From Ceratodon purpureus (lineage: Eukaryota > Streptophyta > Bryopsida > Pseudoditrichales > Ditrichaceae), in contig CM026424.1 in assembly GCA_014871385.1 (NCBI GenBank), forward strand, positions 20,303,321 through 20,367,320: 64,000 nucleotides of DNA. The letters are read 5' to 3'. This document shows positions 23,549 through 60,063 of the stretch, piece by piece; the stretch's first letter is position 1; the number at the start of each line of letters is the position of its first letter. Under the pieces are notes generated by a model. The model saw only the letters and a list, made by a program, of their open reading frames with translations. It did not search any database and was not told where the DNA came from. The position numbers were made by a program, and so were the translations under genes.

Positions 23549-23583
23549 AACCTCATATTGATTAAAATGGCCACTTCACGTTA
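23549..23583 (+). repeat. Left terminal inverted repeat (35 bp)
   Basis: Begins AACCTCATATTGATTAAAAT and continues to CGTTA. It is identical over 35 bp to the reverse complement of 60,029-60,063. A partial echo (AAAATGGCC) follows immediately inside. Confidence 0.9.
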
Positions 23584-23773
23584 AAATGGCCGCTTGATAT
23601 ACTGTGACTGCACCAAAAGGTAAAAATGCCAAAGTGGAATAATGTTATGGTGAATACAATATGTGACATTGAAATAAATTTATTAAGAATTACAAACATT
23701 AAATTTATGAATTTAAAGAAATCAGATAAAAAGAAAAGAAAGTAGGTTCAAGAAAGAAAGGGTTCTTTTAATG

Positions 23774-23912
23774 ATAAAGAAATGTCAATAAAGATAAAGA
23801 AATATCAATAAAGATAAAGAAATGTCAATAAAGATAAAGAAATGTTGATAAAGATAAAGAAATGTTGATAAAGATAAAGAAATGTGGATAAAGATAAAGA
23901 AATGGACATCCA
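23774..23912 (+). repeat. Left subterminal 20-bp tandem repeat
   Basis: About seven units of 20 bp (GATAAAGAAATGTCAATAAA and variants with ATATC, TTG or GTGG). The core AAAGAAATG is repeated in inverted orientation near the right end, as expected for subterminal protein-binding sites of a TIR transposon. Confidence 0.85.
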
Positions 23913-23949
23913 TAAAGATTACTTTCTACTTACTTTATACATGGACGAG

Positions 23950-24075
23950 TACGCTTTTTATATCGCTTTTATAAGCCTTTTAGTTATCTTTTATATGCCT
24001 ATTATATGCCTTTTATATGCCTATTATATGCCTTTTATATGCTTCTTAAACACCCTTTATACGTCGTTTATGGGC
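23950..24075 (+). repeat. TTTTATATGCC short tandem repeat
   Basis: Imperfect repeats of TTTTATATGCC/TATTATATGCC about 20 bp apart, just inside the left subterminal array. Confidence 0.7.
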
Positions 24076-25805
24076 TAAGGCATGAACTCAATAATTTTGT
24101 TATGATTTAGGTTCCGGTCATGCTGCGTATGAGTCAAATTTTACTAGATGTAGTTGTAACTTTGGCACAACATGGAAGGTTCACTTAACTTTCTAAGAAG
24201 ACCATTCATGCTTTAGAATTCCTCATTCTTTAGGGGTACTCCTAAACCTAGAATTGAGTATCATGTGTCAATAAGAGATGGTCGTCGTTCACGTGCAATA
24301 CGAAGCTCTAGCTTCTTCCATGGTCTCTCCAAAAAATACATCTTCAATATTTATCTTTGCCAAGACTGAAGACCTCTCTTCCGGCATCACTTAGGGTTCA
24401 ATTGTATGTGGATTTAGTGTGTCAGAGATTCTCTAAGAATGTCGAAGCTATGTTCCATGGTTGATTATTTTACTTGTGGGTTTCCTAAGCTCAAGCATGG
24501 ATGCTTTGGTTTTGGTTATTTAGATGCCCCTCGCATTTAGAAATGTGAATTGTGAATTGTTTAGTCACTGAGATGCTAAATTGCTGTTGGCATTGTAGCC
24601 GCTCCCAAACCCGGGTGAGGTATGTTTTAATGAGAATGGCCACAATTGTCTGTTGTGCCATGTGCATGTTAACCTATTTATCAAGGAGCTTTCTTTCAAA
24701 GCATTCATTTTAAAAGCATTCTTTCAAATCTCCTGAAATCAAAGTTATCATGGTGAAACTATAACTCAGACGAAGATTGAACTGCATTTGACAATCTCAA
24801 ATTTTCAGCTAGCTTCAGTTCTTGGAAATAGCTAACTATCATGAAGTGTCGAATATTCATGAAGCAATGCACAGTACATCGCTCATAGACCTAACCGATT
24901 GCCTTCACAAAACTCGGCTCTTTTCCTCTTTAATAATTCAGACAATTCTGCACTCGGTACATGTTTGGGCAACGTGGATTGAAACGGTTGGACTGAAACA
25001 CAATGCTCAAACTTGGAATACCAAACACTTGGTAAAGAATTGGTGCTCATATAAGCGATACATAGCTTGTTGTGCATTTATTTACAAGAGGGTTCTGATT
25101 GAATGAACTTCCTCTCTGAAGATATACGGGAAGTGGAGATCATCTTCTACATGAATGTACCGGATAAGTATTCAAGCCACAGCAAAGCAAATCTAATCAG
25201 ACTCACAAGGACAAGCATTCAATAGTTTTGAATTCCACATCGACTCATTGATGACCGATGGATTGGCCTTTCTGTAATCAGCTTCCATGATATATTCTGA
25301 GTCCAAAACTATTAACACCCTTGGACCTCCATGATATATTTTGAGAGAAAATTACCTCAACAACTGTGGCCCCTTATTAGAAATGTTCAACTCGATTTCA
25401 ACATCAGCGGTGTGGTTCAAAAAATGCTACCCTCTAAGAGATTCTCAAATGAGTAGCAGCACAAAAATAATGACTGCATGCACCTAGAGTCGATGAGGTG
25501 CCCTTTTCTGCGCAAAGAACGAGCTGTCACATTTTGGAGCAGAAGAAGAAATTGTGGTCATTGGAAGAGGCCAAAGTAAATGAAGTGTCCAGGTTTGTTT
25601 CACCACTACCCCTAAGTCATTTTAAAATACTGAAATGAGAATAAACATACACTGAAAATACAACTTATAACAAGCATAGGTAGGTGTAAATTCAGTTTAT
25701 CGATAGCTTCTTGACCTTCATTTGTAGAATCATTGCGTGAGGACTGTGATTGTGAAAATAGTTGGAATGCTGTCTTGTAGAATCATTTGATCAATGTTGA
25801 TGACA
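24076..25805. other. Element interior, no supported gene
   Basis: Moderately AT-rich with many stops in all frames. No recognisable exon. Confidence 0.4.
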
Positions 25806-26183
25806 GATGTTGGGAATGGACAGGCAGGATGTGACCCCGGCTGCTGTAAGAGCCTGCAAATACGCCATCCGCTCAAACTCTATTCCTGCGTTTCGGACTG
25901 GTACGTCCTACATATTATTTAACATTTTGGAGGATTCTGATTAGGTTCTAGCTGCAACTACCTTTTCAGCACATTATCAACAGAGACGCTTTCACGTTGA
26001 CCACTCTATCTTATAATTTACTCAATCCCACCAATTTCAAAGTGTCATAAGCCATATGTAAATCCCTGTTTCTGTGCTTTCTAGTGTGAGCAATCACCAA
26101 ATGAAATTGAGGGTGAAGTTGGGAATTCCCCACTCTGTGCAGAAGGATTTGGACATTGAAAAAGTGAAGGCCGTCTTCCCATA
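25806..26183 (+). pseudogene. Lin0512-family gene fragment
   Basis: Two exon-like blocks with GT-AG-like borders. Block 25806-25899 reads GMDRQDVTPAAVRACKYAIR then SNSIPAFRTG. Block about 26,098-26,183 reads QMKLRVKLGIPHSVQKDLDI then EKVKAVFP. Together they match the N-terminal half of the Lin0512 family (small conserved proteins of unknown function in bacteria and plants), as I recall it. The phase between the two blocks does not agree, and the second ends in TAG where VFPYG is expected. The rest of the family domain is not visible. It is a decayed host-type fragment carried in the element. Confidence 0.55.
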
Positions 26184-29315: not shown

Positions 29316-32300
29316 TCATATTCCAGGGGCTGTCGAGGGTTCGCCAATTGCAATATCCACCTGGTCGGATGTGTCGTTGCCATCTACTGTGACAATTACC
29401 TGTTTAGAAGAAACAGGTATCAGCAACAAGGGGGCGAAGCTACATACCGTGTGTAGCATCAAACTGACTCAGTAGCAAAGGGTCTGGGGTGCAGGGGACA
29501 AGGTCGGGATCCACTCTAGAAATGGGACTCACCAGGGTGTCGGGAACTGGGACGATGGGTGTAGCTGGTGTAGGAGTGGGCAATGGCAAGCGAAGTGGAG
29601 AACCAGCGTTCGACACTCCCGACTGGATCTCGGAGAGGTTTCCAGGCCTAGTGGATGGATCTGGAATAGGGAGTTGCACTCGGCCAGCCGCAATATCTGC
29701 ATACAACTTGGCAACCATGGCTTCGTTCTGAGCTTTCATCTCTTCCTGTACAACTTTGAGCTTCTTGTTGACACGCTCGTCTAGCTCACGATCCAGCTCT
29801 GCCTTCCTCTTCCTCATCCATTGCTCCTCAATGAGCTCAGTCTTCATGACAACCCTAGCTTCCTCTTCTAGCGGTGTGTGAAACGAGAAAGAAGCTCCAG
29901 CACTACCTGGCCCTGAAGATGTCGGAACATGTGATGAGGGCTCTGGTTCTGGCACACGCTCCGGCTTCCTCGGTTCGGGAGTTGGCATGTTCACGTGCGT
30001 ATTCCCAACCCGATCCACGGGTCTAACACCCGCTTTAGGCCAGATGCAATTGTACCTCCGTAGCAGCCTGCCACGAGTGAGGTCGTCGTCCTCGTCAGAA
30101 TCAGTGTCACTTCTTAGGAAAATCCGTGGCGGTGCAGGCCTCGAAAACTTCTGTACGAACTCCTCCTCATCCTTTGCCAAAGCCTCCTTCTCGGCCTCCT
30201 TTTGCGCTGCCTTTCTCTTCAACTCGACCTCCCTCGCGGTTTTCCATGCCCTTTCTGCCCTGCGTGCATCATCGCGGTCGGACACATGCGTAGTGTCCAA
30301 GCACTCCGGGGTTGAACTCACCGCGCAGTCGGTAGCAACGAGCGTCTCCACCTGAAGCGCTGGTGCGTTCTTGTCTGCGGCTTTCCTATTGTTCCCCACC
30401 TCAGCCTGCAACTGCGCATCCTTCTTCCCCACGCTCCCGATCTCCCCTAAGTCCATAGATTCCTCCTCACGGCCGTGGTGGTAAACATCCTGAGCTGCGC
30501 GTGCTTCTCCACCCTCCGTCGGTGCCGTTACCTGGGCACGTCCCGAAAGGAACAAATTGTCATGCTCGGGTGGTTCGCGGACGCCAGGAGCGGTCTGAGT
30601 CCCTGCGCCAACGTCCGCGACACGATGTTGAACTTTAGCAGATGCAGCGTGGCTCGTGAGTGGTGGCTCGCCACGTGATCCACTTCCCGATTGCGCAGGT
30701 GCCATCTTACGCGCCACAACAACGATGTCGGGCTCATCCTCCTCCCAAGGTTTCTCGGAACTCTCTCCTTCAACAAAGTGCACCTGAGAAGGCCCAGCTT
30801 GAGTTTGCGTTCCGTCCACTAAGTCTCCGTGGTCGACGTCAAGCTCCACCTGCGATTGCATCTCGTTGTGGAAGTCCTCGCGACCACAGCTTCGAGCGCG
30901 TTGTTGCTCCTTTCGTTGTATCTCCGCGCACAGAGAGCGCAACGCCGAATCCTGTCGAGCCGCGGCATTGGCAATGGCCGCAGCTGCCTTCTTCGACAGT
31001 GGAGTACAAACATAGGAGTCCACAGTCGGGTACTTATCCACTTCCACCCTCTCTATTTGACTTAACGTATCGTTGACGTCCATGTGCTTCGACGTCGCTC
31101 CACCGAAGCGGTCTTCGCTCACCGTCGTGTCTGAGTCGTGCGAGTCGCAGATGTCATTGTCTGCGGATTCTGACGGAAGAGAGACGATGTCGTCGTCGTC
31201 ACTCTCTTCCGGCGGAGAAGGTCTTCCGCCTCTGTTCAACGCAGCTTCGACTCCACGGGATGTTTGGACGTCTACGATCGGAGGTTGAGGACCTTGGGAT
31301 TCGTGGTTTGATGCACCGCCGCCAACACTGCTCTGCGAGAGGCGTACGTCCCGCCGGTCTTCTTCTAAGTAAAATCCTCCGATGACGACATCTGGGTGAA
31401 TAAGGAAATTCACATCCCGTTGCACTAGTTCTGGGTCGTACAAGTTAGCTCCGTCTCCGCTCACGTTTTTGGGGACTGGAAGGTAGTATCGACGCCACAT
31501 GGAAGGTGCCTCGACGACGGCTTTGCTTAGAAGTTTTTCGCTGCGCTTCCGAATTACCTCAAAGGAAATTGAGTTCCGTTTCAACATCTACAGAGACATG
31601 TCCGTCGTTAGTTCATCTTAAAGGAGAAGCCTACAATACTATGTACTTTACGAACTGAAGTTCGTAAACCGCCAATGAATCAGACTGATTCGTACAACTG
31701 GAATGTACTTGAATGAGGACCAGAGAAACAAGGAATGCAACATGAGAGAAGTTTTAGATTAAATTTATTTTTTTAATTTGAATGAATATTCAAACAGTCT
31801 TTGATAAAAAAACTCCTAGAATTGAAATCTGACTGAGCGTCGTGATACTATTGTTACATATGTTAGTGATTAAATTACTAAGTGCCATTTAAATTCAAAA
31901 CACACTTGTGGAAAGCCAGATAATCTTGCTATAAAAAATTTATATCATTAAATTATCTAAAATTCATTACAAAAAAAGAATGGCGAAAGACTAGAGTGAA
32001 AAGAGTGATGAAATCGACAATGCAAATTGGATACGAGTAGTTTACGAACTTAAGTTCGTAAACTGAAGTTCGTAATATTGCATTGCTCAGGACTTAGTAA
32101 AATTTCATAACGCCATTCTACAACTCATCCAGAGTCAATCAATGGTAGCACTAAGTTTCCGTTTGTAGAAATTCCTACTTTAAATCAAAAAACATTAGTG
32201 CAGAACATGTTCTAAAACACAACAAACAAACAATACCATATATATAACTTACCCGACATGCTCTGAGTGCCTTCGATCCTGCAAAGCCGAGAATGACATT

Positions 32301-35300
32301 GTCATTGACGTGAGTGTGAGTGGCGATGAAGCGGATGTAAACCTCCATACGGAGCTCGTCGAGGCTTAAGGTATCCTTGTGCTCCGCACGGTAATACTCT
32401 TGCTTATCGAATTGTGCTCCTTTTACTTTCTCCTCTCCGTAAAGATCCGAGCGGTACTTAATCGTTCCGTTGCTTGCTACATAAGCCACCTCCAGGTAGG
32501 ATATTTCCACTTCGGGAGATTTATGTTTGTATCCAGGCTCACCGAGAGAGAAAGTATATGCCAGTCGTTTACATCGATGGCCGGGAAAGAAGTGGCTCCG
32601 GATGATGTCGACAACGTTCCGTCTATCTTTCTGCGTGATTATCATCCAAGCATCGTTGGTCTTGAACCCCATTTTGAGCCCTCTAATCTCCATCATTTGA
32701 AGAATCTTGTTCCAACTAACAGTCATCTCCATCTCTGCCGACACCAACGGAAAATTCCGTAGATCAAGTATCCCCGCGCCCAACTTTCTGGGGTTCACTC
32801 TCCACTCCAACTCCGTCACGAGATTTCCACTGACTCCGAAAGACACGGTAGAAAGCGAAAACCTACCATCCTCTTTCCACGGGACGAAGACACTCCAATT
32901 TCCTTCTGCAACCGCTTCGCTCCGTGTCTGATTGACAAGGGCCATGTCGATTTTGACGAGAACTTCTTTCGGGGGAAAGTCTGGACTCTTGCGGTTTGCG
33001 GCAATTGTTTCGCTGATGAATGAGTCCGCGCCATCCGTAAAGAAAATGGCCTGCATGATAGTGGACGAGAAACACTTTTCTTGTTTCCACTTCCTCCACT
33101 TAGTCTGATCAATATGCTGGTTCTCGTCGAGGAACATGTTGGACGTCTTCCGCTCGAAATACATGATCCGATCTCCGATGGCCTTTACGATAACGTCCTT
33201 CCACTTTCGTCGCTCGCACCATTTGTCGAGTGGAAGAGCCCGCGTCCATTTTTTTGGCGCTTTTCCGAGATATATCCGCGGTGGATTGCTCATGATATGG
33301 TCTGCAGCCTCACCGAGATTCTCCATGCTAGCACTTGCCAATCCCCGGAGCAACGTTCCGGTGACATGGCACAACGACATCAGATCGGCGGCGTTTGGCG
33401 ACTTCTTTATCTCCTCCTTTGTGTCAAGATCTATCAACTCTCCCGCTTCATATTTCTGAAACACATCCTCCCATTTCTTCCAGATATGATCTGGCGACAT
33501 GATAATCTGGCGCTCTCCGCGTTTCTCCCACTCGACTCGGATTGGTTTGTCCGGGTTATCTTGCTTTATGGTGTGGCTCAGCGACTGGCATGCGCGTGTT
33601 CGAAAAGTCTGTATAAAAAAGTAGAATGAGAACTCCAGACTAATATATATATTGACAGTATGAATAGAACAACACTTTACTATAACGATACTCTGATTGG
33701 CCTATACGGTTACGAACTTGAGTTCGAAACTTGGGAGTCGTGGCGACTGGGACAAGGAGATCACCGCGCGCCATGGACTCGCGACGTGACAAGAATGTCG
33801 CGACGCGAGAAGGTTCCAAACTTCAGCTCCTAACCTTTGAGTCACGGCGCTAGGGACAATAAAATCCCTTCGCTCCAAGGACTCGTGACGCTAGACGGAA
33901 ATCGTAGCGCGACAAGGTTACGAACTGGCGTTCGTAACGTGGGAATCGCGGCGCGCGAAATCAAAGATCAATGTGCTGGAGCCGCGAGCGCGCAAGGGAG
34001 TTCCAGCGAAAACGGGCTTCCTTACAGTTACGAACTGCCTAGTGCACTGCCCGGTTACGAACTTGAGTTCGTAACCTAATCGCGCTAGAACCCCGGGGTC
34101 GCTAAGAACTTTTTGTCCCCGCGCGCGACGCATACTCCAGGTCATGAACTCAAGTTCGTAACCTTCTTGCGACGGGACAAATTTGTAACAAGTGATAAAG
34201 TGTTAAAAAGAAAATATCTTTCCTACTGAAAAGAAAATATCTAATCTAGAGGGAAAGGATAGATTATAATGCTTGAAAATAATGGCCCCAAATTGAAAAG
34301 TTTTCGATTCTATTGAAGACTTGTTTACCTCGTACTTAGACTTTGCATTGGAGTCGGATATAGTATCATCGGTTTGTGAAGCCTTTTTTTTTTTTGGTGC
34401 AGCGTTTTTACGCACCATTGGAGGTCTTCCTTCCTGCTCCCATAGGACGCGACAATGCAAGATAGCGCGAACAAGAGACGTGAGGTGCCGCGACTCGTTC
34501 TGTCCCTCATTGCACTTAAATGAAAGTGCGTGCAAATGAGATACCTTTTCTGTCCACACTACTTGCACATCCCAGATCTTCATCTCCATAATACGTGGGT
34601 TAGTTTGACGTAGAAGAGGATCGTTAAGGCACGATAACGCGGCGTGCCAGGTGTGTTGGCCGTTTATAATCTTGAATTTCCCTGCGTTCACACACTCGTT
34701 CCAATCCCTAGGTCGTTTCTCAAGATTAGGCATCACGGTTAGTACCGGTTTTGTGTAGTTCGCAAGTATCAAGTTTCGCTTGATATCATCTGCTCCGGCC
34801 TTTTCGTAATCCCGATAGATTCTTCCTGACCGATGATCGCTTGGTTCCATGTGGGTGAGAGCAAGCTCGAATAGTTGGTCCCTTCCAAAAATGTACATAT
34901 ACTCCGACTCGCGGGCAAACTTCTCGTTCAGAAGAGATCGTTTCCTAAGTACAGCATTCTTATCTTCCCCCTGTTTAGTTTTTTCGACGCTTGAAATCTC
35001 CGTCTCTAACTCGTCAGGTATTTTGAAGCTAGGATCGAGGTCGATGACTACTGGATTTGCAGACCACGTCATCTCTGACTCCAGACGAACTTTGGGCGGC
35101 GCCGGAGCGCTAGGACGCGGTAAGATGTTTAGGATATCATCCACGCGCCCAGATGGAGTGTCCAATGTTGCGACCGATACTCCAGCTCCTGAACTTTCTC
35201 CAAGGTTGGCGACCCCCTTCGAAATATCTGGATTACGTGAATGGATGTCAGATGTACATTCCATTCTCTCCTCCTCAACTTCGTCGTGATCTTCTAATCC

Positions 35301-36206
35301 AGGATGCACGTAGAGGGGCTTAGTTGCGGGAATTGGCGTCGGCACCGTCGGTTTCGCACGACTCTTTTTTGATGCCATTTGCTTTGGTCGCGGCACTTTT
35401 CCGGGTAGGGAAGGTCCAGGTGCGGGGATAGTGGCGGCTGGCGTTGCTGGCAGGACCTGTTCGCCGACGTCTCCACTCCCGACGTCAAGACTTTGACTGT
35501 TGCGAAGAGGAAATGCAGACCTTCCTGGGAGAACACTCTGCGGGGCAGCTCTAGCTCGTTTGTCAGGTACATTTTTGCCTTTTTTAAACTCCTTGAGGTC
35601 TATTTTTCCTCTTTGTTTACTTGGTGTGACTTCTTCAGAGTTTTCCATTTCCTGATTCCTGTTCGCACTCTTGCTAGTGAACCCCGCGGCGTGACGATCG
35701 ATCAACTTCGATAGTTGACCCCAACTCGCTCCGACGTCAATGTTCTCCGGATCCAACCCTTCAAGCTCCCCAAATATCTGGAGAATGTATGTTCGCCACG
35801 GCTCCAAAAGCCCGACAGAGATTTCGAGAAAATACTCAACATTGAATGGGTGACTCTCCTCAGCTTTGATAAACAACTTCGCGATAGAATCGTTTCCAGC
35901 CAAAGTGACGATGATGAAACCTGGCATCGTGATCACTCCGAGAACAGTGGTCGAACGTAGCGATTTCCAGTGGTAATTTTTCTCCGACTTCAACTTCCCA
36001 ATTGCAAGTGTAAAATTACAACTGTTCCTGTCAGCGCTTGATTCTGGAGTGACAGACCACGCAGAGCGAGTAAGACCATTCATCGTCACCGCTATTTCTC
36101 CGATGAAGACCTCTCTTTTTAAGGCCTCGTCGAGATCCGTAAGTGGAACCTCCGTTAAGTACGGTGACAGACGTGGTGACTGTTGCATGAACCTGTTCTC
36201 CTCCAT
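29316..36206 (-). CDS. Predicted ParB/Srx-like plus DNA-methyltransferase-like fusion protein
   Basis: Proposed exons are 34329-36206, 32253-33608, 29448-31587 and 29316-29386, with GTAAAC, GTAAGT and GTATGT donors and matching phases (0, 0, 1); about 1,814 residues. Residues 1-180 are an unassigned globular region. Residues 180-400 are Pro/Lys-rich and disordered. Residues 400-600 are ParB/sulfiredoxin-like: KPVLTVMP, FKIINGQHTWHAAL (about 512-525; GQHR in relatives) and ALSFKCNEGQNESR. The second exon is like a permuted beta-class DNA methyltransferase: WNKILQMMEIRGLKMGF, a SAM-type motif NVILGFAGSKALRAC (about 1064-1078), then across the intron NSISFEV. The expected DPPY site reads DLRNF, so catalysis is doubtful. 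The C-terminal 700 residues are acidic, charged and coiled-coil-prone, likely nuclear. ATG at 36,206 is the first in-frame one after an upstream stop. Fold calls are by eye. Confidence 0.6.
31648..32075. promoter_or_regulatory. Inverted sites in intron 2 of the ParB-MTase gene
   Basis: Full sites TTACGAAC-N4-GTTCGTAA at 31,648-31,667 (spacer TGAA) and 32,042-32,061 (spacer TTAA, a perfect 20-bp palindrome), the second followed by an extra half-site (GAAGTTCGTAA). Confidence 0.8.
33710..34161. promoter_or_regulatory. Inverted sites in intron 1 of the ParB-MTase gene
   Basis: Sites at 33,710-33,729 (one arm changed), 33,918-33,937 (spacer TGGC), 34,055-34,074 (TTGA) and 34,142-34,161 (TCAA; left arm TCATGAAC), plus a half-site at 34,027. 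The intron is unusually GC-rich for the element and contains repeated CGCGACG-like words. Confidence 0.8.
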
Positions 36207-36290
36207 TTCTGCGAGTTCAATGGCGTTGAGAAGGTAAGTACTACTTTCACTTAGTTTTTCATGTTTGTTTGTTTTAAAAAAAATACAGAT

Positions 36291-42125: not shown

Positions 42126-42129
42126 GAGG

Positions 42130-45690: not shown

Positions 45691-46189
45691 AGTTCACCCT
45701 TTCTAAAAGGAGGTCAAGAGGGATCTGTGAATGTACCTTCCTTGTTTCAATGTCAGCTTCTCGCCATAAAAACAAAGTTTCAGAGAGAAGGGAAAAATGT
45801 CACATTTTTGGCAAGAACAGATGGATTGTCATTGACCTTCAAATGATCCGCCTACACATTGAACATACAACACGTAGAGGAGAAATTAAGGTTCAATGCG
45901 GTGAACATAAATCCTGCAACAATCTTCATCACTGTACTGTATCTACGTCCTTGAGCTCCCAACATTTGAATTTTTCGCTATTGAAGATTTCTATAAGGTT
46001 TTTAAGAAAGATCTAATCTTAATACATGTTCTACAAGAAGCCACCGTAGGAACTCTTAATCGAAAATAATTTTAATAGTTGAATCAAATCATAAAAATCA
46101 TCTAATGTTAAGACAAATTAATGGAATCAGTTCTCGTCCACGAAAAAAAAAAGAAGTTTAGGCAATTTTAACGGCGAAATTGATGATGA

Positions 46190-46640: not shown

Positions 46641-47184
46641 TAAATAAAGGAATAAATAGAAGACAAATGATGAGGTATACAATTTTGGCAATCCTACGAC
46701 TTTGTACATATTTACATATGGATGAAACTGACGGTGGACACCGCAGCTGATTTCGATTCCAAAGTGGAGGGGATGGATGGAACTATTGATTCAATCTTGC
46801 TTGAGATGTGTTCTACGGTAATAGGATGAAAAGGAAGTAAATTACATACATATACAAAAATAAGGAATACAAATTTAATAGTCTTAACTTCAATTTAACA
46901 TGAAGCTGTTTTTCATATAAGTAATACATAACAAACTTAAATTGAAACAAACTTTAGAAACAATAATTATGATTTTTGAAAATGTAGTAGAAAGAGATTC
47001 TTGAAACAAGGGAAAGATGGGTTGAAGCAAAATCAGAAAAGCATGAAAGAAAAATATAATTGTAAGCAAGTTCTTCATAATAAAAGACAATAAACGCAAA
47101 TGTAATAGTTACATATGTACAAAATATCATTGTAATATTAAAAATAAAACGTAACACATTAAATCAAATGTTATGTCCCTTTTG

Positions 47185-47490
47185 GAGCTGCTTGTGCTTC
47201 CACTGGATTTGATCTTGTAATATATTGTTTTTTAAAAAGCCTATCCAATTTCTTAATAAATCGATAGTATTTTAATTTGGTACTTTACTTTAGATGCAAT
47301 ATAAATAAATATTACTTCAAAAACAATGTATCAGAAATAGGTATCTTTCACTTATCAACTCTAATGGATAAATAATTCGTGATTGAAATTTCAAATTTTG
47401 TTAAATTTAAATTAAAAAGATTATATGCTAGATTTTGCCATAGATAAAGAACGTGCAAATAGTATGATGGCACCACATCAAGTATTCTAA
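47185..47490 (+). repeat. Segmental duplicate, copy B
   Basis: Counterpart of 44,757-45,065. Confidence 0.75.
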
Positions 47491-47743
47491 ATATAGTTTT
47501 AAAAATAGATGCAAGATTATAAGACTTTGTAAAATATCCTTGAAAAACTTCAAGTGGAATTTTAACTTGTTTTCACTATATATTTGTAGGACTATATTGT
47601 CAGAAAGTTGAATTTAACTCTAAAGGACAATTGTCTTCAAATGGGTTTTTTTAAAAATTTGGGCCAATTCCTAGAATTCCAATTTAATTCGTAAATCTTT
47701 GAAAAAATCAATGTAGGTAGGCATTTTGAACAGGTTTGTGTAA

Positions 47744-47745
<2 letters not shown>

Positions 47746-47776
<31 letters not shown>

Positions 47777-47777
47777 C
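47746..47777 (+). repeat. Poly-T run (about 27 T)
   Basis: Uninterrupted T tract followed by AT-rich sequence. On the minus strand it is a poly-A tract, so it could mark the 3' end of an old retroposed copy. Confidence 0.6.
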
Positions 47778-48104
47778 TATAAATACTTGATAATGTCATG
47801 TTTGAGGCTTCCTCCCAAAAACAACTTTGAGTGCATATTGTTCACTCTACAAAATATCAAAATTTTCTCACTATTTCGGGCAGTGTACAAAGAGAACTTC
47901 TTTTTCCCTTCATAAAAGTTAGAAAAAATCCTATTTTGGATTTTTTCTTTTTTTCAGTGAAAATATGGACATCAATCTTTACTTTGATCATTTGGATTGA
48001 AACTTTATTGAATAATGGAATTTCCAGGAAAGAAATAAAATTTAACACTCTTATGTATTCAACTTCAAAAAAATATTGTTTTCAATATGCTACACTTGAC
48101 TTTT

Positions 48105-48690
48105 TGGTGTAATTTTTCTTATAAAAGTACCTTACTTAGTCTTCTTTGAGATGCACCAAAACCCCCAAAATCTATAATGCAAAAAACCTAAGAAAAAAAT
48201 AGTTATAGTGTGTCAACCTAGTCAAAACTCTTGTCACAGAAGTTATGAAGGTTTAAGTGTCAAACGCTGCTCGTCGGGCAGCTGCTGAAATTTTCTAAGC
48301 CACTGTGAATGCAGCAAATTCTGCCCAAAACTGCCCAAAACTGCCCAAAATTGCAAAAATCTGCGAAAATCTGCCCAAAGAAGAAACTTTGAAATTCCAC
48401 CAAAAATTGAGATTTTGATATTTTTCAAAAATAAAAATTTCTATGTATAGAGAAGGCAGTAGAGCATGTTCCCACCGTTTGGATTTTTAATCCAATTTTT
48501 TTTCATATGCTATTCTTATTGTCCAAAAACGGCCTTTGTTTGTGAATTTCAGCATACCCCCTAGTGGAAAATGATTTTTTTGGAAACCTTCCACAACTTT
48601 TTTGAATATAATTTTTCTTAATAAAATTAGCTAACTTAGTCTTCTTTGACGTGCATCAAAACCACCAAAATCCATAATGCAAAAAAATGG
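48105..48690 (+). repeat. Diverged 85-bp direct repeat pair and CTGCCCAAAA microsatellite
   Basis: TAATTTTTCTTA, then CTTAGTCTTCTTTGA, then CATAATGCAAAAAA occurs at about 48,110-48,185 and 48,605-48,690. Between them, about 48,307-48,345, are tandem CTGCCCAAAA units. Confidence 0.75.
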
Positions 48691-49110
48691 TTTTGTGGGC
48701 CTTCAAAACTCTGCTGTCCCCTTTTTTCGCAGTGAAAAAAAACTTGATTTCCTACTTTGAACGTTATGATCTTGCAATTGGTGAAGAATGAGTGTGTGAG
48801 ATTTGGTGGACATGTAGACATGGAAGTTAGCTACAAGATCTTACGGTTAGATGTACCAAAAAAGACCCCAAGTTTGCAAAATCCGCCTTGCTTTGAAGAG
48901 GGGCTGTTTTGAGGCAGTTTTGATGAAAAATACCCTCAGAATTTTAGGGGTTAAATGACTTTCATCATTTTAGAAAGAAACTATAGCTTGAATGTATTGA
49001 AATAAACAAGTTCTGAAACAAATGTCTTATAATTGATAATTCCAGTTATGAAAATTGGCAAAATAAGATTCTTATAACTATATTATTCAAAATAAGAAAA
49101 CTCAAGATAG

Positions 49111-49345
49111 TACTTCCTCCGTTTCGCTAAAAGACCTTTGATTGATCTGTCTCGAAATAAGATCGTTGTTTCTAAATTTGAACAATTTACTTCTAAATTT
49201 AGTAAACTTGTTTCTAAATTTTTCCACTTATTTCTAGAATTGTCCATTTAATTCTAAATTTTTCCAACTTATTGTTAAATTTAGAATTTCCAATAAATTT
49301 GATATTATTAGCAAACCGAGGTCTTTTAGCGAGACGGAGGGAGTT
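49111..49345. mobile_element. Stowaway-type MITE
   Basis: About 230 bp with inverted ends: left CTTCCTCCGTTTCGCTAAAA, then GACCT; right AGGTC, then TTTTAGCGAGACGGAGGGAG. The CTCCCTCCG start is the hallmark of Stowaway (Tc1/mariner) MITEs. The left end is preceded by TA; the right TA has drifted to TT. It is nested within the giant element. Confidence 0.85.
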
Positions 49346-51220
49346 CAATGTTTTTAATTTTTCTACTCAATTTCAACTTCAACTGATTCAACAAGTCGAA
49401 AATAAGTTACAAGTAGTTGTATTTCTCTCCATATTTACTCCAGGTGAAGAAATGCATATTATTGTTAACAAACAACCTTATCATTCTGATGGCAAATAAT
49501 TTTAAGAAACAAAATGATGTAAACTTTTTTTTATGGACCAACATCAGACCTTGGAAATGAAGTATCATTGATGATCTAGAAGAAACAAGATATTATGGGT
49601 TCGGATCCAAGCCATATTAAACATATGCATAATTTTGAAAATGACCATACGATAAGTTGGTTAAAATGAATAATATTATAATCAATTGTAGAAGTTTGTC
49701 AACTCTGTTATATTTTAAGATGTTGTTAACTTATCCTTTGACAAGCAAGGCTTGAGATTGTAAAGGTATAAGTACAAGTCAACTTGGTGAATCACTTGAA
49801 TCTAAAGAGAGAATGTTGTCGATATGGTCTGAATGAATATATTAGTATGAATGTGTCTTCATTATTGAGCTTCCAGTCATTATAATTATTTTATAAATAT
49901 TTTGTTTGAAACCCTAAAATTAGTATTCTTATTCTATTGAAGAAGTAGAAAATTAAATCAAGGGTTGTATTTCAAAGAGGGAAGTTGTAGATTAGCTAAA
50001 GAAATTGTTGCAATAAAAGTACCAACTTAATTTATAAAATCAAGATGAATTGTTTGTTACACCAATTTACTTTGATAATCTATTATAATTGTAAGATGAT
50101 TAGTTAATTTTACTCATGTAAAGCATTACCTGTCTCTTTTGTAAGGTTGCTCACCAACTTTAGTGACAAGTATGAACCCCTAAAGGTCCGGAGTGTTTTG
50201 AGACCTCCTGGACCCGAAACTGCAAATTTTGACTACCTTGTAGAAAATGATGTATGTTTCCAATAAAATTTTCTTTTCTGGTATTTTCAACCGTAAGATC
50301 TTCAACCTAACTAATTCTACTAGCACCATGTCAAATTTCAACTATTGGATCTTTACCGCTTGTGAGGTTATATGTCCAAATTTTATTTTTATTTTTTACT
50401 TTTTATTTTTATTTTTATTTTTTTTTCTGGCTTTCTTCAAAAGGCATAGTCTAAATGGTGCCAAGGGAGACTTGATGATTGTTACTCCAAACATCTTGCT
50501 CATAGTTTTTTCCATATAGGTAACTAAGTTGGGCACCTCCATGCAAAATCTTGAAGACTTCTTTTGACTTTTTGGCCTTCATGCAAATTATTTTCTAAAA
50601 GTAGGTACAAAATCCTCAATATGGTAAAACTTAAATAACATTAAATTTTTTTGGTTCGCAAAAAAAGTGAACGGTGAAAATTTACATCTATGAGTTTGTA
50701 AATTTTGGAAGAAAAAAATTTGAAATTTATTAAATCTCAATATTTGAATTTTTTTGAATATTCTCACACGCAGTATTTCAAAAAATATTAAATCCATAAA
50801 CATTCACAAATTTCACTACGCAGCGTATGTCAATACACCCTATGTATCACAACATATGTTAATACACCGTAGTCATATTTTTTTTCCCCACTTCTACAAC
50901 TCCGAAAGTACAAATCATGAAATCAGAGAACCATTTCTGTGAATCTCCTCCGTTTAAAGGAACTCAAATTTTGTGGAGGATTTTCCTTCATTCAATAACC
51001 TAATCATTTTCCCTTTACCTCCCCCCATGACCCCTCCACCTCGGCTCCTTTGATATCCGTGCATAATTCCTTTACCATGAATGGACACATAGTCCAATGA
51101 AGTCGCCGCCATCTCCCAATGCTCTCATTTAATTCGTCGATTTTTATTGCCTCCTTCGCGGGCAGGGTTGGGCAGATCTTGAATTCCTATGTCGGGCAGC
51201 CCAAAATACTCCTCACAAGG
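49346..51220. other. AT-rich element interior, no supported gene
   Basis: Long T and A runs; no exon with a recognisable product. The GC level rises from about 50,980 toward the promoter. Confidence 0.4.
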
Positions 51221-51225
51221 AGGGG

Positions 51226-51233
51226 TATAAATA
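51226..51233 (+). promoter_or_regulatory. TATA box of the DUF7869-type gene
   Basis: TATAAATA in a GC-rich context (GAGGGGTATAAATAGTCG), about 1.2 kb upstream of the ATG at 52,422. The palindromic sites begin about 190 bp downstream, within the presumed leader. Confidence 0.55.
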
Positions 51234-51420
51234 GTCGAGTCCATCATTTGTATGTCTCTTTCTTGCTGTCCCCTCCCGACTCTCACGTCGCGTCCGTGTC
51301 AGTGTTGACGTCTATCTGACGTCACCGTGTCCAGTCCGCCAGGACTGACAAGGAGGTAGTGTCAGTGACCAGTCTGTCAGAGTCGTCAGCTGACAGTGAC
51401 GTAATCACTGACATGGCCGG

Positions 51421-51922
51421 TTTACGAACTGCCGTTCGTAAATTGAACCACGCGGTGTTGGTCAATCTCACATCCCAGTTCCATGTCAAGGTGGCGGTTT
51501 ACGAACGCGAGTTCGTAAACTTTAGTACGCATCGTCGATCCATCTGAAATTCCAGTTCCTTGTCAAGGGTACGGTTTACGATCTTAAGTCTGTAAACTAT
51601 AGTACGCTCTGTCATTTCTAATGGCATTCTTGTCACTTGTGTGAGGTTTTCTTTTCATGTACACGTAGGGCTCATGTTATGAAGATACATTAGTGACCAT
51701 CGTAGAGCAATGGATTTTCCCTAACCGTAATAGCCAGAAGAAGTGGGTCCTAGGTCACGAACTGAAGTTCGTAACCTTCTTAGTGCGCATAATCGTATTT
51801 ACTTTATCGCCAGAAGTAGCTCCATAGGGTTCTATAGAGGTGGCCGTTAGTAGCTTGTAGCGGAGCCGTCTGATCGCTACAGCCGAAGAATTGTCGCTTC
51901 GGTTACGAACTCGAGTTCGTAA
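51421..51922. promoter_or_regulatory. Cluster of five inverted sites in the DUF7869-gene leader
   Basis: Sites at 51,422-51,441 (spacer TGCC), 51,499-51,518 (GCGA), about 51,576-51,595 (degenerate), 51,755-51,774 (TGAA, left arm TCACGAAC) and 51,903-51,922 (TCGA). All keep the 4-nt spacer. Confidence 0.85.
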
Positions 51923-52421
51923 CCACCTTGACATTGCTAGTTTTGGCCGTCTCATTCTAGATCTCTCAGTCACTGACTTAATCTCATCATCCCAATGTTT
52001 CTTGAGAATGAGATGTATGTGGTTCCTACCTTCAGTCATCGTGGGATTATTTAATTCGTGTGGGTTCTACTATTTGGTAGCGCGTGAGCTTGCAATCTCT
52101 CCCCTCACATACATCCTCGACTATACCCTCTGAACTTTCAATCAATCTCTTCTGCCCCTGTTCACGCTTCTCCGTTCTTCAACAATGTTGCATGTACTCT
52201 AAGATTGCTCTACCGAGGTATGTTGACAATGTATACCTCATCATTCCTTTATTTAACTGTGCTCCATTCTCCGCTAACCGATTCAGCGTAACATCTCTCC
52301 ATACATGCTAAGCCCATCGTTGAGCTACAATACGATTTGAACGTGATAGGTCCTTTATGTGTTTGGCGTGCAGGTAATCCAGAGCATCACAATTTTTTTT
52401 GGCCTGAATTAGGACGCAACA

Positions 52422-55400
52422 ATGAGTGGAGAGACATCGCGAAGGCGAATGAGGCATCCAAGCCTCAACCATCGGATGTTGCTCTTGTCAGGATCTTCTA
52501 CCGAAGACGATGACGATTACTCTCCCAGCTGTGGAGTAGAAGAATTCAGTGACTCCGAGACAAATACGAGTGAAAATCTCTCCATTGGGTGGGTAAGTTT
52601 CTACATCAAAGCGCAAACCATGATTACAATTTGTGTGTCGAATAGTCCAATATTTCCTCCAAATGGCATTGATTCTTTGTAAAGTAATCTATTATAACGC
52701 GCTGTTAAACTGAATACTATAATCCTTTGGAGTTGTCCATGACTTCCATTTGTACATGTATACCATACCTAAAATACAAACCTCACATTATTTGAGAGAT
52801 TATCATGTTTGAAGTCCGACAAAACCATCTTTCCTTCAAACTAGAATGAAACACGACTCTTTATGTTGTACAGATAACCACTCACTGAAGTAGCTGTGTG
52901 ACTGACACTGAGATTTTTGTTTGGAAGTGTATTACACTTGCTTTTGAGTTTCCTTTAGATTTGTCCGTTCTTCAAATTGTGGGGAACATTATTCATCACA
53001 TTTCAACATGTCACATTTCATGTAGAAAACCTAGTTATGGATAGAGAATCTCGCATGGTGAAATAATTGTATTAACAGTCCAAGAGACACTGAAACATAC
53101 TTCGCTTCCTCTTTTACATGCAGAGGAAAGTAGAATGAATAAAAACAATATCTCAGATTGTGGTAAACTTGTGAAGGCTACATAACAATAATTAAACATG
53201 TGCGCATCATTATGATAAATTATCATATATATCGGCAGCTTCTTTAACATTTCGGCGGGTTGTAAGGGTGTTATCAAATTCAAATAATGAAAGTCTCCTG
53301 GATTGCAATAGTGAAAAGGTTAAGAAGTACATTTTATAACCTGCTTATTAGTGCCAATAGATTATAGTATGTGGAGAAGATGAGAGTAGAAAATGAGAAT
53401 CTCTGAAAGTTCAAGTTGTCTTTGTTCCTAGTTCTCGCGATTAGAAAAAGAGTGAGCGGGTTATGAACAAGCTTGGAAGAAAATTAGATGACAAAGTAAT
53501 TGAATTAGAACGAAGTAAAAAAACACATATTTTTTTTCATAAACTCAGTAAGCTTGTCTCCCCTCCAATGAACTAGAACGTCAATGTTTCTTCCAATAGA
53601 ATTGACGCGTGATTTTCATAATTCTCTGTCCACATAAGCTACCTAGATAAGCCGAGAATAGATGACATGAAGTTTGCAAATAACATATAATTCAATGCAT
53701 GCATATAGGATTGGATATTTTTTTTCTTTAAAGTCGTATGACTAACGACCTTGAGGCAAACATTGACCTTTCTTTGGGCAAATTTACTACAAGCATTAGA
53801 AAGAGGATCTGATGCTCTTGTTGTAAACCACGGAGAGTATTTCAAAGATAACTAATGATTGAAAGGCGTCGAGTGTTCTTCCTGCCTTTACGAACTTAAG
53901 TTCGTAAACTATACAGCCTGCATCCTTTATCGCCACACTTTGGATGACCAAAATGCATGTGACGGCTGAAGAGGTCTCTAGTGTTAATTTTGATTTATCA
54001 CTAAGGCATGAGGCTCAAATGTTGTAGGGGCATTTAGAACTAAGCCTATAAGAGGGCCATGCATTGTACCTTCTGCATTGCTAATTGGTAATCATTTTTG
54101 TGGGAAGCCAATGTGAGTATTTGAGCTTCTTTCCAGGAAATGGAAGTGTTCATAGTACGTACGAGGATGAACATAATTAAAACAAAACTGGTGCACATTA
54201 AAAGGATCATATTTGTTTACTTTTTGAAGTGTTATGTTTAATTCCAAGGCATGTTTAACTTCGTTTTAACTCTGCCTGTGAGTGCAATTGGTGACCTACG
54301 ACCTTTTACCTTTGAAATTGATTGTCTCTTGTGATTTGACTCGGAAATTTATGAAAAAAATAGATAGAGCTTGCTCTCTTCTCTTTGCCTTTGCTCAAAA
54401 AATCTCAGCACGTTTGACTGCACCTACAACCCAATGAACTAGAACGTCAATGTTTCTTCCAATAGAATTGACGCGTGATTTTCATAATTCTCTGTCCACA
54501 TAAGCTACCTAGATAAGCCGAGAATAGATGACATGAAGTTTGCAAATAACATATAATTCAATGCATGCATATAGGATTGGATATTTTTTTTCTTTAAAGT
54601 CGTATGACTAACGACCTTGAGGCAAACATTGACCTTTCTTTGGGCAAATTTACTACAAGCATTAGAAAGAGGATCTGATGCTCTTGTTGTAAACCACGGA
54701 GAGTATTTCAAAGATAACTAATGATTGAAAGGCGTCGAGTGTTCTTCCTGCCTTTACGAACTTAAGTTCGTAAACTATACAGCCTGCATCCTTTATCGCC
54801 ACACTTTGGATGACCAAAATGCATGTGACGGCTGAAGAGGTCTCTAGTGTTAATTTTGATTTATCACTAAGGCATGAGGCTCAAATGTTGTAGGGGCATT
54901 TAGAACTAAGCCTATAAGAGGGCCATGCATTGTACCTTCTGCATTGCTAATTGGTAATCATTTTTGTGGGAAGCCAATGTGAGTATTTGAGCTTCTTTCC
55001 AGGAAATGGAAGTGTTCATAGTACGTACGAGGATGAACATAATTAAAACAAAACTGGTGCACATTAAAAGGATCATATTTGTTTACTTTTTGAAGTGTTA
55101 TGTTTAATTCCAAGGCATGTTTAACTTCGTTTTAACTCTGCCTGTGAGTGCAATTGGTGACCTACGACCTTTTACCTTTGAAATTGATTGTCTCTTGTGA
55201 TTTGACTCGGAAATTTATGAAAAAAATAGATAGAGCTTGCTCTCTTCTCTTTGCCTTTGCTCAAAAAATCTCAGCACGTTTGACTGCACCTACAACCCAA
55301 TGAACTAGAACGTCAATGTTTCTTCCAATAGAATTGACGCGTGATTTTCATAATTCTCTGTCCACATAAGCTACCTAGATAAGCCGAGAATAGATGACAT

Positions 55401-58400
55401 GAAGTTTGCAAATAACATATAATTCAATGCATGCATATAGGATTGGATATTTTTTTTCTTTAAAGTCGTATGACTAACGACCTTGAGGCAAACATTGACC
55501 TTTCTTTGGGCAAATTTACTACAAGCATTAGAAAGAGGATCTGATGCTCTTGTTGTAAACCACGGAGAGTATTTCAAAGATAACTAATGATTGAAAGGCG
55601 TCGAGTGTTCTTCCTGCCTTTACGAACTTAAGTTCGTAAACTATACAGCCTACATCCTTTATCGCCACACTTTGGATGACCAAAATGCATGTGACGGCTG
55701 AAGAGGTCTCTAGTGTTAATTTTGATCTGTGACTAGTGTTATTTTCCCTTTCACTCATTGAATGACTATATGTTGTGGGCAACCTTTAGGAGACACCCTT
55801 AACATCAGAGATTTCTGAGGATGAGAGGAACGATGAGCATGTGGACATTTCCCCAATCCCTGAGTGCGATGACATTGCAAGAGAAGATTGGAAAGGGCTC
55901 ACGGTGGAAGCAAGGCACGAACATGGGACAAAGTTTGCCACCGTTCTTGTAACGGCGACAAATTATTCAATGTCCGTTGATGGTGAAAATGACCTGGGGG
56001 ACTATCAATTTGGCGTTGTGGTATACGAAGTATTTGAAGGTGATTCTATCCTGATTGATCGGTGCATTAGTTGGCCTGTCCACTTGCTCTTTTATAAGAA
56101 TGTTAGCGTGTACGATCACCTTCGAAAACATGCTGTTACTATGAAAGCCAGCGAGGACAAAAGATTGGATCGAAAAGGAAAGCGCACATACGATATCACG
56201 AATAGACCTTCGAAGGAAAAAAAAACACAGGAATGGAGAGTTAGCAACGAGGATATATCAAAAATATACTTAGTTGAATGCTGCCATCGGCATTGTACGA
56301 GGGCTTTTCCCGCCGAGACCGTTCGAACGCTTCGATACGAGATGTACCTAAACAACTCGGAAGAGAAGCGGTTGAAGAACCTTGAAGTACATCGAACAAA
56401 ATACTGTTCCACTGATGGAAAAGATGCAGTAATGCTTGAATTCAAGGAAGTATGCATTAAAGGATGGAAATTGATTCATGGTGTCGCGGACCGAACTTTT
56501 CGACGTTACCAGAAACAAGCGGAATCAGGCGAGCGAGGCCGACCACATGGCAATCTTGGCAAGTCTAAACCTAGATCTTCCACGTTACAAGCTACAGAAA
56601 CTTTGCGGACAATTTTGGATGGACTTGCGGACCAAATGCCATATACCTGCACGCTTCCTTCGGGAGAACGTGTTCCACAGAAGGTCCTCCCAACAGGAAT
56701 TCAATGGACCCAGTTCCTCCCTCAAATAAACAAGGTGCTTTACAACTATATTCGCCAATTACATGTATTTTATTCGTCAATGTTTGTATTAAGGGCCTAA
56801 GGGATCTAAATATTTTTTATGTTGCTTGGCAGGTGAACGAGAAAGTTGGTCTGAAATCCATCTCCCCTACTCTTCTAAGCAAGATCCGTACTACAAAGTA
56901 TGCGGATTACAGGATAAAAAAAAGATGGGATTCGTTTTCAAGGTGTTCAAAATGTGACTTGTACACAACCTTGCGAAATGCAGCCGCTCGTGGATCAAAG
57001 GTGCAAAAAGAATGGGCCATTAAATTTAACAAGCATACTAAGTGTCAGTGGGCAGCACGGAATGTGTACTGGTCGGATCGACTTCACTCCATAGACCGTC
57101 CCATGGAATTTGTGTCTATTCTCCATGACAAGATGGACCATTCGAAGACTGCACTCCCATGTTTAAAACACCGAACGAAGGACCTCGATTGCTTATTGAA
57201 GCTCCCAATATCGGTGGTTGGCATGTATGCCCATGGACACGGTGATGGAAGGTATGCACACTACACCGTAGATGTTTTTCCGATCGACAGTAACTTCACA
57301 ATAGGGTCGATTGCAAAACTCTTACGTGATCTGGAAGAACAACCAAAACAGTATAGCAGATCACTTTTTGCGGAGAATGGTAGCAACCCTTTGTATGAAG
57401 CACTACTGCGTGGAAAAGAAATTTGTTTACCATCACTGGGCGAACCGAACGACAATCTAAGAGTTCCGCAAGATCTTCCTCCTGTCTTACATGTCCAGCT
57501 AGATAATTGTTGGCGCGAGAATAAAAATAGATTTGCATTCTGTTTCTGGTCGCTCTTGGTGGCGAAGAGGATTGTCAGAGAGGTTGTGGTGTCTTTCATG
57601 ATGGTTGGACACACCCACGACGACATTGATGCTTCATTTGGGAGGTGGAGTATGATCTTGAGGGCAAAAGACCATCCGACCCTACCACTCCTGATGAAAT
57701 CCTACATGGACCTAGACACAAACGGTCCCATGATTCCGCATCTTATTGAAGAAGTCCCAGACTTCAAAAGGTTCATCGCCCCATACATTGCCTCCACACA
57801 TAATACGAAGCTCCAAGGGCATAGCAAAGGCAGCCAATTCAGATTCTTTATGCATGAAAATGGATGGCCGTTGATGCAATATAAATTAGCTTGTACGGAG
57901 AAACAATGGAAACCCACTCACGTACCTGGTATCAAGCTTTGGAAGGAGGATAATAGAGGGATGCCAATTCTCCCCCCAGAGGACGCTGAACCGTTGGCAG
58001 TGAAACCTAGGAAACTCAAACACATCGATGACTTATTAAAGGGTATCGAGGGTTTCATATCTCATTATAAGAAACTTCGAAGAGCAGATGTGTCTCCAGT
58101 ATTCAAATCGCAGCAGTCCCACTATGTGCAGTATTGGACCGGCATTCGAGATGCAATAAGGTCAATGAATGGTCTCCCACCAAGTCTAAATCAAGAAATT
58201 TCTCCCGAAGATTGTGACAATGTCGAAAACACGACCGCAAGCGCTTCGGAGGACAGTGATGGTGAAGAAGACCATACTGAAGAAAGCAACAGGGTCCGAA
58301 CCTCGGAAGGAAGAGTACAGTCCATGAACGAAGAACCGGCGAATGCATCGAACTCACAACCTATCATCAACTCGAATGATAACATTCATAGGGATATCAC

Positions 58401-58957
58401 ACTGAGATTTGGATTCTGGCCAAAAACAAGACTTTCGGAAGATGTAGAAGCTCTGCGATCAACTACGTACGCCCCACCGATGCGACCTCCAACATACGAG
58501 GCCGACGTAGAATCAGAAGATGAAGCATATATTGGTGCTAGGGACGGCAGACCCCCCCCCTTCGTTTAGAATTGAGAATGACATACGAAAAGGTTTTTTC
58601 GTATTTGTTAGACCGGGTGAGGGTTGTGATGAACCCATATGGCTTGGAAAAGTCATGACGCATCCCCAACTGGATGCTTTATTACCCAAGTATAAAGAAT
58701 TCAAGGTTCGATGGTGGATACCGAACAACAATATCGCGGCAGGCCCTGATGCGTATCGTGGGTGGAACACAGTCCCCATGTTTACATATAAACTAGACCG
58801 CAGCACTAAGACACAGGATAGTATTTCGACAGATGCCGTTCTTGCTTCTTGGAAACCGGTAGCCAAGGGTCTAGTCCAATATGCTCCAACTTTGCAAATC
58901 CAATTTGCCATGGACAATCTGCGCAAAATCCTCGAGTTTGAAAGGAATCAGACCTAA
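52422..58957 (+). CDS. DUF7869-type transposase-like protein, frame broken at a C9 run
   Basis: Exons are 52422-52592 (MSGETSRRRMRHP, acidic, 57 residues), 55790-56734 and 56833 onward; donors are GTAAGT and GTGCTT, both phase 0. After an N-terminal domain comes a Trp/Arg-rich region (KGWKLIHGVADRTFRRYQK) typical of the family. The core has VVGMYAHGHGDGRYAHYTVD, LHVQLDNCWRENKNRFAFCF and VSFMMVGHTHDDIDASFGRW, with conserved Asp/His resembling an RNase-H-type nuclease. Frame 1 stops at 58,569 right after nine C (58,552-58,560). Losing one C would continue into the frame ending at 58,957, which encodes the expected C-terminal module (GFFVFVRPGEGCDEPIWLGK, RWWIPNNN, GWNTVPMFTY). This is a real frameshift, slippage or a base-calling error. 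Likely the transposase of this element; the DUF name is from memory. Confidence 0.7.
53566..55726. repeat. 866-bp tandem array in intron 1 of the DUF7869-type gene
   Basis: Units start at 53,566, 54,432 and 55,298 (2.5 copies, nearly identical). Each holds one perfect TTACGAACTTAAGTTCGTAA palindrome (53,888-53,907; 54,754-54,773; 55,620-55,639). The array ends just before the acceptor at 55,789. Confidence 0.95.
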
Positions 58958-59570
58958 ATCTCATATATGAAGCTTGTTTACATCCAATGTAAAACTAGCA
59001 CGATATTTATTATACTGTACAGTGTATTACTCATGAATCAAGTTTTAGAAAGGGTGTAATGTGCACAGCCTTTTTACCTTTCATACCTTTTGATGGAAAA
59101 CATTATCGCAACGTATTTGCTCCAACACTGCTACATTAGTACTATCGTTCCACCATTATGATAATTTATCACCCCTCTTTATAAATCGCTTCCATGAACG
59201 ACGAATATATCTACGGACCACAGAATAATTAAGACAGGACTCTGCACTCTCTCTACTAAAATACCAATTCAATATCATTTCCATTCTTGAAACAAGGTGT
59301 TTTTTTTAGATTGCTATAAGTGTTGGAAGTTGCTCTCCCATTTGGAGTTGTCGTTCTTAGCTTCACTTAGAAGATGCAGATGCCTTATCCACTTTCATGA
59401 ACTGAAACTGTACTCAACACAACTTTCTTGGATACCCTTGGCTTAACAGTTCCCCACTCTCCAGTTTATGAAGGTGACCTTCCGAATTCAATGTTTCCAC
59501 AAACACTTATCCTTCAACGTTTGACAAGTTTTGATTAATTCAAATTTTTGTTGATATTGACAATTCTCTT
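58958..59570. other. 3' flank of the DUF7869-type gene
   Basis: No gene; presumed 3' untranslated region and terminator area. Confidence 0.4.
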
Positions 59571-59571
59571 C

Positions 59572-59880
59572 AATAACTACTTTCTTTTTCTTACTTACTT
59601 TTCTTTAAATGTAAATACTTTTCCTTTATTTAATACTTTTCTTTTATTCCATACTTTTCTTTCAATATTAAAACTTTTCTTTTATTTATGCTTTTCTTTC
59701 AATATATGAACTTTTCTTTTATGGAATTGATTTCTTTTAGTATAAGCACTTTTCTTTTAATTATCAATTTTTTCTTTTAATTATCACTTTTTTCTTTTAC
59801 TCTAGACTCTGTATCTTTCGAAACTATGGCATTTCTTTCTATGCACATACATTTCTTTCCCAATATTTTCCATTCCTTAC
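59572..59880 (-). repeat. Right subterminal repeats
   Basis: Repeats of ACTTTTCTTTTATT-like units on the plus strand (AAAGAAAAGT on the minus) and three AAAGAAATG words on the minus strand (59,830-59,870), mirroring the left subterminal motif. Confidence 0.75.
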
Positions 59881-60028
59881 AATTTAAATAATAAATAAAA
59901 CTCCCATTATTCCACCGTGGCATCCCTTTTCACGTCCAAAAGTATGACTAATTACCAAATCCCTACTATTAACAACCCCCTCTAAGGTTTACTTTTATTA
60001 TTATAGCCAAATAGTGTGACACTCCATA

Positions 60029-60063
60029 TAACGTGAAGTGGCCATTTTAATCAATATGAGGTT
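60029..60063 (-). repeat. Right terminal inverted repeat (35 bp)
   Basis: Reverse complement identical to 23,549-23,583; ends CAATATGAGGTT and is followed by TAGT (60,064-60,067). Confidence 0.9.

Follow-up and report, generated by a model that had tools for sequence, protein, structure and literature searches.

Giant terminal-inverted-repeat transposons of the moss Ceratodon purpureus pair a predicted DUF7869 transposase with a gene for a predicted methyltransferase-like domain

The window analysed here, a 64,000-nt stretch of Ceratodon purpureus DNA (C4:20303321-20367320 of the 362-Mb assembly GCA_014871385.1, contig CM026424.1), holds a 36.5-kb element (positions 23549-60063, 36515 bases). 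We regard it with good confidence as a terminal inverted repeat (TIR) DNA transposon, one of a C. purpureus family with their own 4-bp target site duplications (TSDs) at other loci, and hold that it likely transposed by a cut-and-paste route, using the predicted DDD transposase that it encodes (gene T) and probably helped by the product of a second gene, P. The family itself is a real, recently multiplied lineage of giant two-gene TIR transposons.

An earlier note, made from the sequence of this stretch, had proposed one giant TIR element with perfect 35-bp inverted repeats, a TAGT duplication at both borders, mirrored subterminal repeats and two big outward-facing genes, and each of these features was borne out. 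The left and right TIRs were identical, in inverted orientation, at 35/35 bases, with borders exactly at 23549 and 60063, and these two ends were the only occurrences of the TIR in the window (up to 3 mismatches allowed; 0 expected). TAGT lay immediately outside both borders. The subterminal motif AAAGAAATG occurred six times on the + strand at the left end (all within 23776-23904), twice on the − strand at the right end (59830 and 59850) and nowhere else in the window, while the two large genes pointed outward, P on the − strand (29440-36206) and T on the + strand (55790-58957). The features of the ends were:

23545..23548, TSD TAGT, left copy (read from sequence)
23549..23583, + strand, left 35-bp TIR (perfect match to right TIR)
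23769..23904, + strand, left subterminal 20-bp tandem repeats with AAAGAAATG (repeat search)
59596..59860, − strand, subterminal CTTTTCTTT/CATTTCTTT repeats of the right end, mirroring those on the left (repeat search)
60029..60063, − strand, right 35-bp TIR (perfect match to left TIR)
60064..60067, TSD TAGT, right copy (read from sequence)

The case for one giant mobile unit was carried by the same ends with different exact 4-bp duplications elsewhere, by 139-bp derivatives and by a divergent gene pair at 38 loci. A 161-bp left-end query matched the genome at least 42 times, in many cases through the TIR only, so the TIR pair is not confined to this site and a single occurrence was rejected. 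We compared copies on C11, C3, C12 and C7, plus two further left ends and 20 end regions. An exact 4-bp TSD was found in eight of the nine elements with both ends read, and all eight words were different:

Window element, 36.5 kb, TSD TAGT, both ends read
C11:12899159-12933460, 34.3 kb, TSD ACTT, both ends read
C12:8259174-8301271, 42.1 kb, TSD ATAG, both ends read
C7:16457943-16491449, 33.5 kb, TSD AAAA, both ends read
C2:19889892-20048142, 158 kb between ends, TSD TCTT, both ends read
C54:1696-31627, 29.9 kb, TSD GACT, both ends read
C2:7651308-7651446, 139-bp miniature element, TSD TACT
C7:9705406-9705544, 139-bp miniature element, TSD ATTG
C10:6152682-6176499, distant element of 23.8 kb, flanks AATT/CATT, alike at 3/4 bases

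The element thus has TIRs and a TSD, with several copies bearing independent duplications, as a TIR DNA transposon should. Four giant sister copies spanned 30-42 kb, and because copies carry independent duplications, whole 30-42-kb units have moved. The 158-kb copy on C2 presumably holds later insertions. The two miniature elements had the same TIR start as the family of the window element, and at 139 bp they indicate that an element probably needs no more than its ends to be moved in trans. The distant element on C10 also began its TIR with AACCTCATATT, as in the window element.

Outside the TSD count stood 14 of the 20 end regions, which were unpaired (six repeat the C54 flanks), the left end at C7:1000708, the C3 copy and C12:9848465; in this last, a second distant copy, the T-side end was present and the P-side TIR was absent from the 5 kb read. 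On C3 the right end (5043057, flank AACT) and left end (5337500, flank AGTT) lay 294 kb apart with flanks that were reverse complements, and a run of N began at 5086244; they look like one element split by inversion or by an assembly misjoin. A second subfamily was represented by five T-side ends with a related TIR, lying where the similarity between copies stops and having different flanks; in two copies, reading 8 kb of each did not reach its P-side end. An assembly join between the two ends of the window element, which the earlier note had named as a possible refutation, was rejected as unlikely, sister copies with their own duplications being present on other chromosomes.

Could the copies have spread by segmental duplication or recombination, their TIR/TSD pairs inherited from one old insertion? 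The 29.9-kb C54 copy fits such a history for a subset of copies: it recurred with identical flanks on C8, C70, C103 and C39, a 12137-bp spacer was seen twice, and the insertion was apparently amplified inside a tandem array of about 42 kb. (Ribosomal DNA was considered for this spacer and not shown, a 2.5-kb piece having no Rfam match at gathering score.) The other elements lie on five chromosome-size contigs and differ from one another in both their flanks and their 4-bp duplications, which makes this a very improbable account of the family.

The interior travels together with the ends. On alignment, the C11 and C3 copies shared the ends and much of the interior of the window element, with 33534 of its 36515 bases matched at 90% identity or more by the C11 copy and 28493 of 36515 by the C3 stretch. 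Identity with the C11 copy was 97-98% across roughly two thirds of the element; long shared blocks were 97-99% identical, with one 7-kb C11 block at 94%. The interior features were:

36289..38553, 755-bp unit in three tandem copies, upstream of P, with 27 of the 41 TTACGAACTNNAGTTCGTAA palindromes (repeat and motif search)
38554..53564, AT-rich interior, much of it common to the C11 and C3 copies (copy comparison)
53565..55735, 866-bp tandem repeat, 2.5 copies, upstream of T, with three palindromes 866 bp apart (repeat and motif search)

Repeats in the interior had been predicted and were confirmed in these two tandems, each just upstream of one gene; their copies were 98-99.7% identical and their copy number varied between sister copies. 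The accompanying claim of host-gene debris was not confirmed. Much of the AT-rich interior was 93-99% identical in the C11 and C3 copies and, being shared with them, belongs to the element. A Pfam scan covered six of the nine interior open reading frames (ORFs) of at least 150 aa, the other three (29882-30355, 33024-33629 and 34837-35289) being antisense to P, and only T matched Pfam among these six. Searches for tRNA or structured RNA cargo found none. A virus-derived element such as a Polinton/Maverick, brought to mind by the TIRs and the size class, is extremely improbable: the six scanned ORFs, each an uninterrupted frame of at least 150 aa, included no member of a polymerase, capsid, protease or retroviral-type integrase family, and the element has a 4-bp TSD and a 35-bp TIR.

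Gene T was read as follows:

55790..56734, + strand, gene T N-terminal exon, predicted (splice sites read from sequence)
56833..58569, + strand, gene T catalytic exon, DUF7869, candidate triad D102, D224 and D266 numbered from 56833 (PF25273 E=2.7e-42, 52-sequence alignment, fold model)
58552..58560, + strand, cytosine run where the T frame breaks in the window copy; C11 and C3 copies open there (sequence comparison)
58570..58957, + strand, C-terminal T part in another frame (visual comparison with the P0001 and P0002 C-termini)

The T donor and next acceptor motifs were also present in 4/4 sister copies searched. Relatives of T among the matches listed were 42-72% identical (for example, KC19_3G000300 of Ceratodon and A9RIR0 of Physcomitrium). 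Four aspartates, D102, D138, D224 and D266, were invariant in 52 T sequences, and the predicted fold was used to pick the triad D102/D224/D266 from them. The T model resembles DDE transposases and integrases, with an RNase-H-like core and acidic residues at the triad positions, so that the model predicts T to be a transposase with this core and triad. Foldseek on the T model alone gave no match below E 0.1, that is, a weak likeness. The resemblance holds among the folds that VIA lists, where 25 of the 50 rows for T matched only helices, mostly near residues 394-449, and were uninformative. By sequence, the 52 T proteins matched no transposase family in Pfam (E of 5 or less, filters on), only DUF7869, and T found nothing relevant among Protein Data Bank (PDB) structures. 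Because the T frame is lost near the C-terminus, the window copy is probably now non-autonomous, or else the assembly is wrong at the homopolymer.

Gene P lies on the opposite strand:

34329..36206, − strand, gene P exon 1, predicted, 626 codons; invariant INGQHTWHAA, ParB/DGQHR-like by eye only
32253..33608, − strand, gene P exon 2, predicted, 452 codons; fold like that of beta-class methyltransferases (AF2 model, structural alignment)
29440..31587, − strand, gene P exon 3, predicted; first residues continue the methyltransferase-like motif by eye, the rest without known domain (sequence reading)

The phase-0 splice acceptor of exon 3, read from sequence, was kept in the C11 and C3 copies. 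P had no Pfam match, and by sequence it found nothing relevant among solved structures. Of the ParB/DGQHR family, P showed the INGQH[TS] motif only, with no match to a profile of such a family in Pfam or NCBIfam. Exon 2, which has relatives in distant families, modelled with AF2 as a beta-class amino-methyltransferase fold, but its motifs, placed by eye, are degenerate and not those of the class (DLR[NH]FP at the catalytic site, FAGSK at the cofactor site). On account of this degeneracy, the P model is more likely that of a DNA-reading pseudo-enzyme than of an active methylase, and P, with its methyltransferase-like domain, may help the element to move.

We asked how regularly the two genes occur together, scoring the best 75 of 1195 first-look T candidates (76 rows, one 58-residue fragment being dropped) against at least 63 P matches from one search and at least 80 from another. 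P lay within 45 kb at 39 of the 75 T loci and was divergent from T at 38 of these 39; random P positions and strands gave a mean of 0.87 and a maximum of 4 (500 trials). No P was found within 45 kb at the other 36 loci at the search sensitivity used. Pairing persisted where T was about 50% and P 22-33% identical to those of the window and, since it holds among such distant T and P copies, is probably old. Two P copies sometimes lay close together, at C6:18039821 and 18077616 (37.8 kb apart; C6 is the V sex chromosome by locus tag KC19_VG078600, the window sitting on another chromosome, C4) and at C7:2190993 and 2201352 (10.4 kb apart), which suggests tandem or internally duplicated elements.

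P is under purifying selection, silent changes exceeding replacement changes among distant copies: between the window and C12, P exon 1 had pS 0.71 and pN 0.20 and T exon 2 had dS 0.067 and dN 0.009, with C7 alike. The closest copies showed few changes and little constraint (window-C3 omega 0.38 for T, 0.44 for P exon 1 and 1.08 for P exon 2). Exon 2 of P had one stop each in the C12 and C7 copies and T had two stops in the C7 copy; some copies are therefore decaying. The same two copies revealed that the element halves are mosaic. At 90% identity or more, the C12 copy matched 7944/8064 bases of the T end (52000-60063) and 506/21452 of the P half (23549-45000), and the C7 copy matched 7101/8064 and 0/21452, respectively. 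The T and P halves thus differ in history: recombination has taken place between elements, and the switch lies near 52 kb.

These data bear on whether P belongs to the machinery at all. The element could be a non-autonomous giant composite, a T-only transposon in which P, the arrays and the interior ride as passive cargo and P has no role in movement; the 36 of 75 scored T loci without P found within 45 kb would fit this, as would the 139-bp elements that move with ends alone (though in trans) and an interior mostly without known domain. We consider it unlikely, given that the divergent position of P is kept at 38 loci, down to 22-33% identity, and that most differences between distant P copies are silent.

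If P is instead a working partner, its most likely target would be the TTACGAACTNNAGTTCGTAA palindrome. With 3 mismatches allowed, this occurred 41 times in the element and 0 times in the other 27.5 kb of the window, against 0.06 expected in the window, a copy number inflated by the 755-bp tandem. Of these sites, 27 were in the tandem array before P, six in predicted introns of P, five at 51.4-51.9 kb and three before T; sister-copy stretches held 24 (C11), 32 (C3), 19 (C12) and 11 (C7). This distribution suggests that the site is a protein target, with P a candidate binder. In the mechanism that we envisage, both the TIR and the mirrored subterminal repeats would be binding sites for T, which would then cut the element out and insert it at a target cleaved with a 4-bp stagger. 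P, which has a methyltransferase-like domain and a ParB-like motif, would bind element DNA, most likely at the palindromes clustered before both genes, and its binding would bring the two far ends together or control expression.

Outside the element, minus-strand ORFs to its left (5764-6384, 6449-7051, 6928-8256 and 9540-10487) looked by eye like the remains of another transposon, with a WSDGCAAQF motif, and had no Pfam match near cut-off. Just to its right, at 61248-62657, lies an ORF with a Dof-type zinc finger (PF02701, E 1.3e-14) and a tail of 63-bp tandem repeats.

Plant cut-and-paste transposons usually carry little besides a transposase. In this family a unit of tens of kilobases moves whole and includes a second gene, which recurs at 38 loci, and DUF7869, a domain of unknown function, thereby acquires a likely role as well as a genomic context. 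It becomes possible to test in a moss how a transposase copes with ends lying 24-42 kb from each other and what keeps a methyltransferase-fold partner in place.

Among known systems, the TSD lengths of KDZ, hAT, MULE, CACTA, PIF/Harbinger and piggyBac disagree with the 4 bp seen here, and that of Mariner is TA. T is like Mariner (Mos1) transposases and retroviral integrases in its predicted RNase-H-like core and acidic residues at the triad positions, and differs from them in having no PDB or Pfam transposase sequence match and in the 4-bp TSD. The beta-class amino-methyltransferases (M.BceJIV, MboIIA, CcrM and RsrI) share their fold with P exon 2 and, by eye, its motif order. Their motifs are (D/N/S)PP(Y/W/F), for example a catalytic DPPY, and FxGxG, as against DLR[NH]FP and FAGSK in P. 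T is by profile (E 2.7e-42) a member of the moss PF25273 DUF7869 proteins, which the present analysis connects with TIRs, TSDs and a partner gene.

Sola transposases have a DDD triad, and Sola transposons are present in plants. By description, Sola is the nearest known superfamily, and that the element is a giant offshoot of it rather than a new superfamily is a real possibility, at somewhat under even chances; this is a matter of classification only and compatible with the T and P transposon proposed here. The 4-bp duplications at exact borders and the invariant aspartates at triad positions speak for it, as do the 4-bp AT-rich TSDs of Sola2 (PMC3627910). Against it, T matches no Pfam transposase family, only DUF7869, and the Sola2 TSDs in passages of PMC3627910 are AT-only (AWWT, ATAT, AAAT and ATTT), while six of our eight contain G or C besides A/T, GACT having two. 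Large size and a P-like partner are not described in those passages and belong to the present element.

We tentatively propose, with a confidence that falls short of one half, a new superfamily: giant (about 24-42 kb) two-protein moss transposons in which the gene of a DUF7869 DDD transposase would be divergently paired with that of a DNA-reading protein of methyltransferase fold. The latter would recognise a palindrome array specific to the element and draw the distant ends together or protect the element from silencing, and the two gene halves would recombine as interchangeable modules. That the element was previously unrecognised, as the earlier note had it, agrees with our searches of open-licence PubMed Central (PMC) papers, in which a word search found none naming DUF7869, and nothing among the matches listed corresponded to giant or novel moss transposons or to ParB or methyltransferase genes in transposons. 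Passages of a 2019 review of giant transposons (PMC6431247) mention neither moss nor Sola, and the T-P gene pair goes unmentioned in the titles, abstracts and passages on Starships, Teratorn and Terminons. These three likewise comprise tens of kilobases as one unit. Unlike the present element, Starships are grouped by their tyrosine recombinase and Teratorn is a fusion of piggyBac with a herpesvirus; Terminons are retroelements (PMC6431247).

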